Assembly (NCBI GenBank): GCA_031266055.1
Contig: JAISBT010000016.1
Span: 1 to 64,000 of the forward strand
DNA length: 64,000 nt
Source of the DNA: Deltaproteobacteria bacterium
GTDB taxonomy: Bacteria; Desulfobacterota; Desulfovibrionia; Desulfovibrionales; Desulfovibrionaceae
Direction of reading: 5' to 3'
In this document: piece by piece, positions 1,329 to 59,440 of the stretch
How positions within the stretch are numbered: the stretch's first letter is position 1
Layout of the letters: each line of letters begins with the position of its first letter
Translations under genes and position numbers: made by a program
Notes under the pieces: generated by a model
Databases searched by the model: none
Told to the model about the DNA's origin: nothing
Seen by the model: only the letters and a program-made list of their open reading frames with translations

Positions 1329-1359
1329 GCCGCGACCGATCTCGCATTATACCATTTCT

Positions 1360-1391
1360 ACATCAAAACTGCATCCATGCAGTTTTGATGT
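1360..1391. repeat. perfect 14-bp inverted repeat ACATCAAAACTGCA-TCCA-TGCAGTTTTGATGT (module H5 of the mosaic repeat, inverted orientation)
   Basis: Read directly; followed by ATCGGCTGC, the reverse complement of the GCAGCCGAT flank in the 21.8 and 58.5 kb copies. Confidence 0.85.
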
Positions 1392-1478
1392 ATCGGCTGC
1401 CGATCTTTTACCGCGAGTATGGAGGAAACCGGCACGATTCAAAGCTCTTCACCCGAATTCTGAGCGTAACATGCTATA

Positions 1479-9289: not shown

Positions 9290-10420
9290 ATGCATACACT
9301 TTGCCTGACCAACGGCCGTATCCTGGCGCCGCATGGCGATGCGGACAGCCTGCACTTTTGCGGCGAGGTCATTGCCGATGCTGGCGCCGCCACGGCAACC
9401 CGCGCATACGATCTCGAAGGCGATTTCCTTGTTCCCGGCCTCATTGAACTGCACACGGATAACCTGGAGAAACACTTTGTCCCGCGCGCCGGGGTGAACT
9501 GGCCGGCCGGGCTTTCGTCCATTGCGGCGCACGACGTGCATATGATCGGCGCCGGCGTGACCACGGTATTTGACGCGATTACCGTTGGAGAACCCGCCGA
9601 CAGAAGCTGCCGGAACGAGCTTTTGTCCGCCAGCCTGAACGCCATTGCCTCCGCCGCCGGGCGCAACCTGTTGCGGGCGGAGCATTTTGTGCATTTACGC
9701 TGCGAACTTGCCGGCGATGATCTTGTGGAGCGGCTTTCTCCGTGCATGGAGAACAAAAGGCTGCGCCTGCTTTCCATAATGGATCATACGCCCGGCCAGC
9801 GGCAGTGGCGGGATCTGGACAAATACAAAACTTACCACAGCCTGCATGGAGCCACCGAAGAAGAATTCGCGGAACGCCTGGACATGCTGAAGGCCAAACA
9901 AATGAAGAACGCGCCCGGCAATTTGAAAACCGTCGTGGACATCTGCCGCGCTCTCGCCCTGCCGCTGGCCAGCCATGACGATACGACAGCAGAACATGTG
10001 CGGGAAAACGCCGGCTACGGGACAGACATATCGGAATTCCCGACCACCATGGAGGCCGCGCGGGAAGCCAAACGCCACGGCCTGTCCGTCATTATGGGCG
10101 CTCCCAACATCGTGCGCGGAGGATCCCATTCCGGTAACGTTTCCGCCGTGGATCTGGCGCAGCAGGGGCTGCTGGACATCCTCTCCTCCGACTATATGCC
10201 CGCAAGCCTGCTGCATGCGGCCTTCCTGCTGCCGGAACTTACGGGCGTGTCCTTGCGCGAAGCTATGGAAACCGTGACGATCAATCCGGCAAAGGTTGTG
10301 GGACTTGACGATCGCGGGGAGCTTACGCCGGGCAAACGGGCTGACGCCGTGCAAGTGCGGCTGGTGGACGGTATTCCCGTCGTGCGGGCCGTCTGGCGAT
10401 CCGGCCTGCGGGTGCTCTAA
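9290..10420 (+). CDS. phnM: alpha-D-ribose 1-methylphosphonate 5-triphosphate diphosphatase PhnM
   Basis: Amidohydrolase fold; DFLVPGLIELHTDNLEKHFVPRAGV, ASHDDTTAEHV, ILSSDYMPASLLHAAF. Confidence 0.95.
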   Translation: MHTLCLTNGRILAPHGDADSLHFCGEVIADAGAATATRAYDLEGDFLVPGLIELHTDNLEKHFVPRAGVNWPAGLSSIAAHDVHMIGAGVTTVFDAITVGEPADRSCRNELLSASLNAIASAAGRNLLRAEHFVHLRCELAGDDLVERLSPCMENKRLRLLSIMDHTPGQRQWRDLDKYKTYHSLHGATEEEFAERLDMLKAKQMKNAPGNLKTVVDICRALALPLASHDDTTAEHVRENAGYGTDISEFPTTMEAAREAKRHGLSVIMGAPNIVRGGSHSGNVSAVDLAQQGLLDILSSDYMPASLLHAAFLLPELTGVSLREAMETVTINPAKVVGLDDRGELTPGKRADAVQVRLVDGIPVVRAVWRSGLRVL

Positions 10421-10429
10421 TTCCAAATT

Positions 10430-10595
10430 AAACAGGATGTCGCGCCGAAGCGGCAGCCGTTAAATGGCATAGCCGTTTTACGGATGGCGACAGCAGCGCT
10501 ATACGAAGTATTTCGGCGGCAAGGCGGAACCACGCTTCCGCCGCAACCGACAGATAAAAATCGCAGGACGCAATTTTTATCTGGAATCCAAATAA
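10430..10595. repeat. mosaic palindromic intergenic element, copy 1 (downstream of phnM)
   Basis: GCAGCCGTTAAATGGCATAGCCGTTTTACGGATGGCGACAGCAGCGCTAT...TTTCGGCGGCAAGGCGGAACCACGCTTCCGCCGCAACCGA, then terminal hairpin CAGATAAAAAT...ATTTTTATCTG (10551-10583); homologous to 58421-58560. Confidence 0.8.
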
Positions 10596-11358: not shown

Positions 11359-11620
11359 AGCAGTTTAATTTTGAAAAATTGTACTGCTCTGCCTGGATAT
11401 ATCCGTCATATTCGCCAGTTCAGGCGATGCGCTTGCCCAAGGTATTAAAAACAAACAAGGTGTTTTTGCCCGAAAGCACTTGCCGGATGCGGCAATACGT
11501 GCTAATTGGTTTAGAGCGGTTTGACATTGAAAATGTCGAACCGTTCTACAAGAGTTTGCCGTGCAAACCCTTGCGAAGCATTTCAGCATTTTCAACCTTT
11601 TCAATGTTAAAATGCTCCGT
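11357..11620. repeat. cluster of palindromic repeats, family B half/whole units
   Basis: AGAGCAGTTTAATTTTGAAAAATTGTACTGCTCT (11357-11390); AGAGCGGTTTGACATTGAAAATGTCGAACCGTTCT (11513-11547); AGCATTTCAGCATTTTCAACCTTTTCAATGTTAAAATGCTCC (11578-11618). Confidence 0.8.
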
Positions 11621-11851
11621 TAATTGTTTATATTTTTAACCAGTTATCCGGGCAGACGCGATGCGGGTGTGGGCGAAAAAACATTTTTCCCTTGTGTGCG
11701 CCTGCGGGTTGAAACCACACGCGTACAGCGGGTATCTTGAAACAATATTCACCTCCCGGCATATGGCCAACGACGGAGACTGCCTGCGCAAGCCTGAAAA
11801 AGAACTTGCGCTTGCCTACAGCATCAGCAACATTGTCCGGCAGGCGCGCTG

Positions 11852-20755: not shown

Positions 20756-21681
20756 AGGTTCCATGCGACCAGCGATATATTTCAGGAAAAATCATGCAAA
20801 ATCTCTCCGATCAGATACGGCAGGACGTTGAATATGCCTTTTCATGCATTGCCAAATACATGGAATACTTTCCGCGCGAGAACATTCACGGCTCTTCGGT
20901 ATGCGAAATCGGCCCCGGCAAAAACATGGCCGTCTGCCTGACCTTCAAAAGTCTCGGTGCGGCCGGATCATACGCTGTGGACAAATATCTCAAGCCCTGG
21001 AACGAAGAATATCACCCCGAATTTTACAAGGCCATGGCCTATGCCGTGCGTTCCCGCTGGCCGGACGCCGACATGAATCCCTTTATCCAGTGCATTGAGC
21101 GCAACGGACATGCCGCTGAAAATGTCTCTATTCTGGCGGAAGATGCCGAAATTCTGGCCGGTATACCGGATGCTTCCCTTGACTTTCTGTATTCGTGGGC
21201 CGCGCTGGAACACCTGTATGCACCACCGCGGGCTTTTGCGCGTTTTGCCGCCCTGACCAAACCGGGAGGTCTGGGCATGCACCAGGTGGATTTTCGTGAT
21301 CATCACGATTTTTCACGTCCGCTGGAATTTTTGCTGCATCTGTACCGTTGGAACCAGGAACCGGATGAAGCTGCGTATGCATGGCTGGCGGGCCGCCTGG
21401 GCCGGAGCGCGAATCAGGCCCGCCTTGAGGGATTCGACGCCAATGGCCTGATCCGGCGGATTTGCGGCTACCACGGCAACAGTTACCGGCATGTCGATTA
21501 TGATGCCCTGTGGGCAGGCAACGGCTTTTCCGTCGAGGGGTTTGAAAAAAACATGAGCGCCGGGGAAACCTATCTGGGCGATTTTTTGCCACGCCTCGCA
21601 CATGCCGATGTGCCGTGCCGCAGACTTTCAAAAAACAATCTTGATGTCGTCAGCGGCCTTTATAAACTGCGCAAGGTGTAA
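20752..21681 (+). CDS. class I SAM-dependent methyltransferase
   Basis: SVCEIGPGKNMAVCLTFKSLGA; DFLYSWAALEHLYAPPRAFARFAALTKPGG; start uncertain (20752 or 20794). Confidence 0.8.
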   Translation: MKVPCDQRYISGKIMQNLSDQIRQDVEYAFSCIAKYMEYFPRENIHGSSVCEIGPGKNMAVCLTFKSLGAAGSYAVDKYLKPWNEEYHPEFYKAMAYAVRSRWPDADMNPFIQCIERNGHAAENVSILAEDAEILAGIPDASLDFLYSWAALEHLYAPPRAFARFAALTKPGGLGMHQVDFRDHHDFSRPLEFLLHLYRWNQEPDEAAYAWLAGRLGRSANQARLEGFDANGLIRRICGYHGNSYRHVDYDALWAGNGFSVEGFEKNMSAGETYLGDFLPRLAHADVPCRRLSKNNLDVVSGLYKLRKV

Positions 21682-21835
21682 TTCCGTTTCTCAATCAAAC
21701 ATGCTTTTATGTTTGCTTGAGAAACGGAATCCGCGACAGGACGTCGCGGCGAAATGCAAAGCATTTCGGAGGCAAGGCGGAACCCAAGCTTCCGCCGCAG
21801 CCGATACATCAAAACTGCATGGATCGGGAAACGAT
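21681..21835. repeat. mosaic palindromic intergenic element, copy 2
   Basis: ATTCCGTTTCTCAATCAAACAT-GCTTTT-ATGTTTGCTTGAGAAACGGAAT (21681-21730), then CCGCGACAGGACGTCGCGG, CGAAATGCAAAGCATTTCG, GGCGGAACCCAAGCTTCCGCC, GCAGCCGATACATCAAAACTGCATGG; near-identical to 58371-58565. Confidence 0.9.
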
Positions 21836-30426: not shown

Positions 30427-30720
30427 ATTTTGGGACGTCTCCTTCGGCACTTGACGGCGAAACATCGCTGCTGTCTTCATCCGTAAGCTGCTGTACAGCA
30501 ACGGCTGAAGCAAGTTTCGCCTGCGCCTGCGGAGCGGGCGGCGGTGCCCGCCGCCAGAGCATTTCAACATTTTCAATGTTAAAATGCTCTAAAGCAATTT
30601 AATTTTGAGACGCCTCCTTCGGCGCTTGACGGCGAAACAAGTTTCGCCTGCGCCTGCGGAGCGGGCGGCGGTGCCCGCCGCCAGAGCATTTCAACATTTT
30701 CAATGTTAAAATGCTCTAAA
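30427..30720. repeat. family B palindromic element, tandem duplication (long copy ~165 bp then short copy ~125 bp)
   Basis: Both units contain ACGGCGAAAC...GTTTCGCCTGCGCCTGCGGAGCGGGCGGCGGTGCCCGCCGCCAGAGCATTTCAACATTTTCAATGTTAAAATGCTCTAAA. Confidence 0.92.
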
Positions 30721-31270
30721 TTTCCATGATTTCTTTTTCTTTGAGTTGCAAGGTCTTGTCACTTTTGGCAACATAACTGTCCGTGAGCTTTTGAATAAAA
30801 TCCTGCGCCTTCTTGCCGTCATCTTCGCCCATGGCTTTGTCTTTTTCCATCTTTTTCAGAGCCTCGTTGGCCTCACGGCGGACATTGCGTATGGCTACCT
30901 TGCATTCTTCGGTATACTTGCGCGCCACTTTGACCAAATCCTTGCGCCGCTCTTCCGTCAGCGGCGGAATGCCTATGCGGATGATCTTGCCGTCATTCAC
31001 CGGGTTGAGGCCCAGATCCGACTTCAGGATGGCTTTTTCCACCGGGGCGAAGGCGCCCCTGTCCCAGGGCTGAATCGTAATGGTGCGGCTGTCCGGCACA
31101 GACACCGAGCCTATCTGATGCACAGGCGTGGGCGTGCCGTAATAATCGACTTTGATGTTTTCTATGAGCGCGGCGCTTGCCCGGCCGGTGCGCAAACCGG
31201 AAAACTCGCGCTCCAGAACGGTTATGGCCTTGCCCATACGTTCCTCCGCCTCTTTTTTCAATTTTTCCAT
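30716..31270 (-). CDS. frr: ribosome recycling factor
   Basis: [52 protein letters not shown]. Confidence 0.97.
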
Positions 31271-49250: not shown

Positions 49251-49495
49251 GCGACAATCTCAAGCGTAAAATGCTCCAGCAGAGCGGTTAGAGAATTTTA
49301 ACATTGAAAATGTTGAAATGCTCCGGCGGCGGGCACCGCCGCCCGCTCCGCAGGCGCAGGCGAAACTTGCTTCAGCCGTTGCGACGAAGGAAGCTACGGA
49401 TGAAGACAGCAACGATGTTTCGCCGTAAAGCGCCGGAGGGAGCGTCTCAAAATTAAACTGCTCCAGACATTTTCAATGTCAAACCGCTCTAATGT
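49251..49495. repeat. family B/C composite palindromic element, inverted relative to the 30.4 kb copy
   Basis: GCGACAATCTCAAGCGTAAAATGCTCC; AATTTTAACATTGAAAATGTTGAAATGCTCCGGCGGCGGGCACCGCCGCCCGCTCCGCAGGCGCAGGCGAAACTTGCTTCAGCC...; ...TCAAAATTAAACTGCTCCAGACATTTTCAATGTCAAACCGCTCT. Confidence 0.9.
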
Positions 49496-55302: not shown

Positions 55303-55337
55303 AGAGCATTTTAACATTGAAAATGTTGAAATGCTCT
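55303..55337. repeat. family B minimal palindrome
   Basis: AGAGCATTTTAACATTGAAAATGTTGAAATGCTCT. Confidence 0.9.
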
Positions 55338-55445
55338 AGTTGGGTCTGTCGGCATAAAATATCATTATTTGCACAAAAGAATTGAATAATTTTTCAGTTT
55401 TATTTACAGTAATAATAATAGCCGGTTATTCCAATTCCAAATCCG

Positions 55446-55566
55446 GAGCATTTTAACATTGAAAATGTTGAAATGCTCCGGCGGCGGAGCAAAGCAAAAA
55501 CCGCGTTTTTGCTTTGCGATCCTATCGCTTAAAACGAAGCGCATGCGTAGTTTTAAGCGATACATG
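55446..55566. repeat. family B half unit followed by two long palindromes
   Basis: GAGCATTTTAACATTGAAAATGTTGAAATGCTCC; AAAGCAAAAACCGCGTTTTTGCTTT; ATCGCTTAAAAC..GTTTTAAGCGAT. Confidence 0.85.
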
Positions 55567-58215: not shown

Positions 58216-58370
58216 TACATGATTCCTTTACAACTCATAGCGTTTCCTATTTTTGATGCAAGAAAATAACCAATTTTAATCTTGAAATTCAACGTATTAT
58301 AAATACATATACCTGAATTAACAACGTGAAACGGTATCATTTTTTGCAATTTTCATCTGGGATCCGAATA

Positions 58371-58575
58371 ATTCTGTTTCTCAATCAAACATGCTTTTAT
58401 GTTTGATTGAGAAACAGAATCCGCGACGGGACGTCGCGGCGAAGCTCCAGCCGTTAAACGGCATAGCCGTTTTACGGCTGGCGACAGCAGCGCTATGCAA
58501 AGCATTTCGGAGGCAAGGCGGAACCCAAGCTTCCGCCCGCAGCCGATACATCAACACTGCATGGCTGCAGTTTGG
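58371..58575. repeat. mosaic palindromic intergenic element, copy 3 (longest)
   Basis: ATTCTGTTTCTCAATCAAACAT-GCTTTT-ATGTTTGATTGAGAAACAGAAT (58371-58420, perfect 22-bp stem), CCGCGACGGGACGTCGCGG, CAGCCGTTAAACGGCATAGCCGTTTTACGGCTGG, GGCGGAACCCAAGCTTCCGCC, ACATCAACACTGCATGGCTGCAGTTTGGATGT-type arm. Confidence 0.9.
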
Positions 58576-59440
58576 ATGTGGAAATGGAATAAGAACAGGG
58601 CTGGCCCGGAACAAGTCCGAAAAATTTCATGGCGGTTTTCCCGCAGGATGTCCAGAGCTCCGCCGCGTCAACGCCCCGCGCTTCAGCCATTGCCTGGACG
58701 GTCAAGGCCAGATAGGCGGGTTCGTTGCGTTTCCCCCTGTACGGCATGGGCGCAAGGTAAGGACAATCCGTTTCCAGCATAAGGCGATCCGCCGGGATGT
58801 TTTTTATGGCCTCGCGCAGAGTCTTGTTCGCCGGAAAAGTCACCGGCCCGGGGCAGGAGATGTGCCAGCCGAGCTTTAAAATACGCTCCGCCATGGCGCT
58901 GTCTCCGCCAAAACAATGCCAGACCAGCGGGTGGTTTACAGCGCCTTCCGCCACAAGAATTTCCAGGGTATCTTCCGTGGCCTCCCGGCTATGTACGGAA
59001 ATAGGCAGTCCGACTTCCAGAGCCAGATGAATCAGGCGGATAAAAGTCGTTTTCTGCGCCTCTCTGGCGCAGTCTTTCCAGTAATAATCAAGCCCGGTTT
59101 CACCCACAGCCCTGATGCGCCGGTTGGTCTTGCAGTTCACCCGCAATTTTTCCAATTCTCCATCTGTAAGCAGATACGCCTCATTGGGGTGGATAGCCAG
59201 AAGAAAAAAAACTTCCGGGTACAGCGCAAACAGACCTTGCCCCTGCTCCAATTGTTCCGAAGACAGAAAAACCTGCCCGATAAAGGCAATCCCGGCTGCT
59301 TTCGCGCGGCTCAGCACTTCCGCGCGGTCGGAATCAAAGCGCCGGTCGTCCAGATGGGCGTGGCTTTCAACTCCGGTCGGCGGCAGTTTGAAAGAGGCAG
59401 GATCAAATACGGGCAGAGGATGTTTTGCGGATTTTGACAT
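58493..59440 (-). CDS. TatD-family hydrolase with C-terminus extended into a repeat element
   Basis: VESHAHLDDRRFDSDRAEVL; VGETGLDYYWKDCAREAQ; LMLETDCPYLAPMPYRGKRNEPAYL; last ~31 aa encoded by repeat DNA. Confidence 0.9.
   Translation of the reverse strand: MSKSAKHPLPVFDPASFKLPPTGVESHAHLDDRRFDSDRAEVLSRAKAAGIAFIGQVFLSSEQLEQGQGLFALYPEVFFLLAIHPNEAYLLTDGELEKLRVNCKTNRRIRAVGETGLDYYWKDCAREAQKTTFIRLIHLALEVGLPISVHSREATEDTLEILVAEGAVNHPLVWHCFGGDSAMAERILKLGWHISCPGPVTFPANKTLREAIKNIPADRLMLETDCPYLAPMPYRGKRNEPAYLALTVQAMAEARGVDAAELWTSCGKTAMKFFGLVPGQPCSYSISTSKLQPCSVDVSAAGGSLGSALPPKCFA

Follow-up and report, generated by a model that had tools for sequence, protein, structure and literature searches.

The string of hairpins at position 58,371 of the window, the 64,000-nucleotide stretch of DNA analysed here, is one copy of a transposon-like repeat family (family A), which we regard, with a probability of roughly three in four, as a non-autonomous, hairpin-rich MITE that duplicates a TNA target, is moved by an IS630-family transposase and has become mosaic by three routes. 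The copy is a long form with R module that occupies positions 58372 to 58589 of the + strand, i.e. 218 bp between the target-site duplications TAA at 58369-58371, whose last A is also the first base of the hairpin, and TAA at 58590-58592. It is bounded by the terminal inverted repeats (TIRs) TTCTGTTTC (58372-58380) and GAAATGGAA (58581-58589) and contains, likewise on the + strand, the left 22-bp hairpin H (58371-58420), in which a T-A pair replaces C-G at stem position 5, the CCGCGAC/GTCGCGG hairpin (58421-58439), the 51-bp R module, a REP-like hairpin nested at CGAA^ATGC (58444-58494), the segment ATGC..GCATTTCGG (58495-58510), which together with CGAA (58440-58443) makes up the CGAAATGC/GCATTTCG hairpin of the short form, the GGCGGAA/TTCCGCC hairpin (58518-58537) and the right terminal hairpin ACATCAACACTGCA/TGCAGTTTGGATGT (58548-58579). 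The hairpins listed in a preceding sequence-only reading are present where it had placed them; its end at 58575 is too short, since the right terminal repeat reaches 58589 and the target duplication 58592. The stem at 58371-58420 is perfect over 22 bp, and the RNA fold of the element has an energy of -111.3 kcal/mol with z = -10.7 relative to shuffles, indicating that the hairpin string is not due to chance.

Complete copies of family A start with TWCC directly after a TNA and end with GGWA directly before one, their TIRs reading TWCCRTTTC…GAAAYGGWA, and in 17 of the 20 the 3-bp duplication is equal on both sides (TAA, TTA or TGA). Unequal flanks are found in the other 3 of 20 and likewise in one copy of the MITE M2 described below (L251; TCA/TAA), a mini-element (L227) and an IS derivative (L257). 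The combined TIR and TNA pattern TNATWCCRWTTC has 104 matches in the genome versus 8 for the reversed control. One copy (L033) sits on the TGA stop codon of an ORF of about 660 codons, and its orthologous site is empty in two genomes of the same genus (L143 of G002 and L150 of G004), which show a bare single TGA at the same gene end. At the site of another copy (L039), the genome G003 has the same gene pair without the element; this stretch aligned less well and is compatible with an empty site. Family A is short (below about 300 bp), non-coding and multicopy, with TIRs, a target duplication and an empty site, and its classification as a MITE-like non-autonomous element is well supported. The mobile unit is thus a transposon-like element with TIRs and TNA duplication, which the earlier reading had missed.

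About 45 intact or broken copies are present in the host draft genome, a MAG of 202 contigs that is 91% complete; the 205-base query retrieved 68 matching pieces from the 2.75-Mb draft and a refined query 94. Complete copies measure 154-220 bp, and minis of 49-66 bp consist of a single hairpin between the two ends. At L043:2001-2100 and L241:1519-1600, family A ends are joined directly to palindromes that belong to other families of the host genome. Full-length matches are lacking in the six same-genus genomes searched. Some match to family A occurs in 44 of 288 genomes of the family, several of these being confined to the internal R module; the genera g21 and g18 have the strongest matches. 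The core is also found in two named public contigs, both from Desulfovibrio sp. MAGs, whose isolate naming suggests a termite-gut origin; the host draft genome is a relative of named Desulfovibrio MAGs.

Within the window, a short form without R is located at 21679-21822 (+), where its left TAA represents the stop codon of the upstream ORF; the copy is truncated and breaks off inside the right hairpin at about 21822. Its stem at 21681-21730 comprises 21 of 22 pairs with one A·C mismatch. The exchange of a stem base pair that had been noticed between the two elements is real, with C-G in 21681, T-A in 58371 and, intermediate between the two, U·G in a further copy (L011), and the shared hairpin order likewise proved correct, as the module order is kept across the aligned copies. 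The copy at 10418-10595 (+) is flanked by a TAA/TAA duplication, contains R and has a different right hairpin. Its terminal hairpin had been considered swapped, which is not the case, because the left hairpin is largely deleted there and CAGATAAAAAT/ATTTTTATCTG is a type of right-end hairpin common to at least two other copies (L021, L023). A solo right-end fragment of family A lies at 1347-1400 (-). Three elements are stacked at the 58371 site, namely the adjacent MITE M2 at 58238-58336 (-), which has the same TIRs, a TCA duplication at 58235-58237 and 58337-58339 and ends that match an IS630-like IS, a relic of the 10430-type right end (..GCAATTTTCATCTGGGATCCGAATAA) at 58340-58371 (+), and the family A copy itself. 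A second palindrome family (GAGCATTTTAACATTGAAAATGTTGAAATGCTC) is located at 11514-11626, 30557-30725, 49291-49332 and 55304-55487 of the window and at further loci of the host genome; in several places a nested R-like module of its own comes after it.

The alignment of the copies separates short forms with the CGAAATGC/GCATTTCG hairpin from long forms with exactly 51 bp (R) between CGAA and ATGC. R is present or absent at this one exact point even within one terminal-hairpin type, as documented by the R-plus and R-minus copies L016 versus L037:3919 and, in type II, L022/L024 versus L238. Where R has been deleted in part, remnants are still visible (L020, L025, L028), and for this reason deletion alone does not account for the clean short form. 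By the four-gamete rule, 27 other sites were compared with the presence of R, and 10 of them are incompatible with it. The PHI site-order test for general recombination between copies is not significant (p = 0.49) and thus does not distinguish between recurrent insertion, precise loss and conversion of R, whose toggling could be repeated precise insertion and excision or conversion. R is inserted without visible duplication. Many genomes of the family have R-like units on their own, one of these units (L092/L093) sits between the halves of another palindrome, and a variant R' is found inside the second palindrome family of the host genome, including two places in the window. At L242, the same locus as L040, M2 lies exactly in place of hairpin H, the rest being recognisable as family A with TAA on both sides.

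The proposal that hairpin modules recombine like cassettes holds for discrete modules only, i.e. R on or off, M2 in place of the left hairpin and the minis with internal deletions, and finds no support for general exchange in the PHI test; the copies do not fit the opposite expectation, a single ancestral sequence altered by nothing but point decay. From these end products we infer three routes. In the first, an internal hairpin would gain or lose the REP-like 51-bp module at a single exact position. In the second, two TIR-bounded units, hairpin H and M2, would take each other's place as the left end, and in the third, internal deletions would give rise to the minis of 49-66 bp.

The candidate for the mobilising enzyme comes from M2, an element of about 100 bp with the same TIRs and TNA duplication as family A that shares about 20 bp with the end of an IS630-like IS together with the TNA duplication. 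This 1.1-kb IS, reached from the M2 end in genome G131, has the TIR TACCATTTCCTATT and TTA on both sides, and its transposase is split over several frames with HTH_33 and DDE_3 domains. Similar TIRs occur in the relatives from G039 and G041, so that the IS shows exact or near-exact TIRs and equal duplications in three genomes (TTA/TTA, TCA/TCA and TGA/TGA). The partner transposase matches the profiles PF13592 and PF13358; the G041 copy has two overlapping frames, which may be joined by frameshifting, and the second of these exceeds the cut-off of 100 for NF033545 (NCBIfam IS630) with 133 bits. IS630/Tc1 elements are described with a TA duplication (PMC8533490; PMC2229807), and TNA around an IS630-like IS is therefore unusual. 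The TA dinucleotide duplication of the IS630 family is not seen in the three IS copies, and the TGA copy does not keep the inner TA at its right end; among the papers listed in our literature search, we saw no IS630 element with a TNA duplication. The loci L254 and L256 represent IS630-family IS with a 3-bp TNA duplication.

Family A and the IS have only about 9-10 terminal bases in common, plus the TNA. An intact IS with matching ends was not found in the host assembly, which is weak evidence given its fragmentation into 202 contigs and completeness of 91%; the assembly contains one other, degenerate IS630-type gene, which encodes a transposase of another kind and is located at L295:182-1022 near a host contig end, with a family A copy at a distance of about 800 bases. 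Among the other IS630 loci in relatives, matching ends on both sides were seen only for the G131 IS, and plasmid homologues of the partner transposase were absent at 1e-20. Judged by its ends and target, the IS630-like partner probably mobilises family A. The transposase would act on the terminal repeats of about 9-10 bp (TWCCRTTTC), and the element would be inserted at TNA with duplication of three bases, as can be read from the ends and flanks of the copies. The mover would most likely be an IS630-family transposase like that of the IS in the related genomes, which has TACCATTTCCTATT as its terminal repeats and likewise duplicates TNA.

The distribution of the copies shows a supported bias for stop codons. 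When genes are called mechanically as ORFs from 80 codons upward, 11 of 31 copies are located exactly on a stop codon versus 8.4% of the intergenic-or-stop TNA sites (p = 2.6e-5), and 10 of these 11 placements are on the left side. The orientation bias of the neighbours is weak, with 25 of 37 left neighbours pointing toward the element. Many insertions would fall on stop codons because TAA and TGA are TNA, and the gene would stay intact because the duplication restores the stop codon; the position is directly visible, and the insertion is presumably harmless. Selection against harmful insertions may contribute, so the bias is no proof of an enzyme preference.

The stem of the left hairpin also shows strong covariation. 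In 29 distinct left hairpins, 96.4% of the cells pair, and both sides have changed in 9 of the 22 stem pairs, which was reached by none of 500 shuffles, these counts being inflated by the relatedness among copies. Single changes of the U·G versus A·C kind, considered as a possible sign of RNA-level selection, are too few among the left hairpins for a decision. The paired changes could stem from selection on the hairpin in single-stranded DNA or RNA or from mutual repair of quasi-palindromes, as such repair by template switching would also yield them. Since relatedness inflates the counts and template-switch repair could give the same pattern, the covariation is no proof of a function of the fold.

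Other explanations for the hairpin string differ mainly in the agent of its spread. The same MITE could be moved by an IS5/IS1031-type transposase, the similar ends of the IS630-like IS being coincidental. The IS1031 group does insert at TNA with an exclusive 3-bp repeat (PMC12016507), but we consider this explanation improbable, because the IS630-like IS carries both TIR and TNA and is tied to family A by M2, and because family A TIRs were absent from the ends of the DDE_Tnp_1 loci fetched from 16 genomes, which led us to reject these transposases as movers. Slightly less probable still is a BIME/REP-type array, in which a RAYT (Y1 transposase) would move the hairpins as REPs via single-stranded DNA, without target duplication. 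This would agree with the internal R module, which resembles a REP, occurs widely on its own and shows no visible duplication at its insertion, and with the R-like module of the second palindrome family, but the whole family A element has TIRs and a 3-bp duplication. The host assembly has no match to Y1_Tnp (PF01797), and full R ends are missing from the Y1 loci of relatives, so that Y1/RAYT was also rejected as the mover of R in the loci at hand; a RAYT origin may nevertheless apply to R by itself.

Equally improbable is an RNA structure maintained by the host, i.e. a 3' mRNA stabiliser, terminator or attenuator that has spread mainly by selection and not by transposition. The strong fold, the covariation, the placement on stop codons and the tendency of the left end to face a gene end are what such a structure would show; target duplications, the empty site and the minis argue against it, as do the lack of full-length matches in same-genus relatives, the weakness of the orientation bias and an Rfam scan of the window in which no family matched. 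An RNA-structure role may apply to individual copies.

The MITE with a putative IS630-family mover can be compared with several known systems. BIMEs and BOX elements are modular palindrome mosaics like family A, which differs in its TIRs, its TNA duplication and its movement as a whole, with only R being REP-like. The target of the Correia/NEMIS elements of Neisseria is TA. They are TIR-bounded MITEs with strong hairpins and size variants (in part PMC2229807), features shared with family A, whose sequence is unrelated. The RUP of Streptococcus pneumoniae is an intergenic MITE of about 107 bp with TIRs that match an IS630-family IS (IS630-Spn1; PMC2229807), which corresponds to the situation proposed here; RUP targets TA, whereas family A targets TNA and is longer and modular, with several hairpins and a nested REP-like unit. 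A changed duplication has a parallel in Sailor, a group of the IS630 infraclass with a non-TA duplication (PMC8533490), which is TATA there and TNA here. The IS1031 subgroup of IS5 is alike in its TNA target and 3-bp duplication (PMC12016507), but the candidate transposase here belongs to the IS630 family.

A more specific version, which we put forward tentatively and regard as rather doubtful as a whole, is that some IS630-type transposases form a clade whose target duplication is TNA and not TA, and that their MITEs insert at stop codons and restore them; these MITEs would have a nested REP-like module and TIR-bounded end units that can be exchanged, and the preference for gene ends would stem from the transposase and not only from selection. 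If true, the target chemistry known for the IS630/Tc1/mariner group would be extended by an IS630-type enzyme that duplicates TNA. The analysis turns an unexplained palindrome string into a testable mobile system with defined ends, a target and a candidate enzyme. The copies show how small transposable units that nest in one another and swap ends can give rise to mosaic repeats of the BIME/BOX type, and landing on and rebuilding stop codons would be a simple means by which a parasite could increase in number in a gene-dense genome and leave the genes unbroken.
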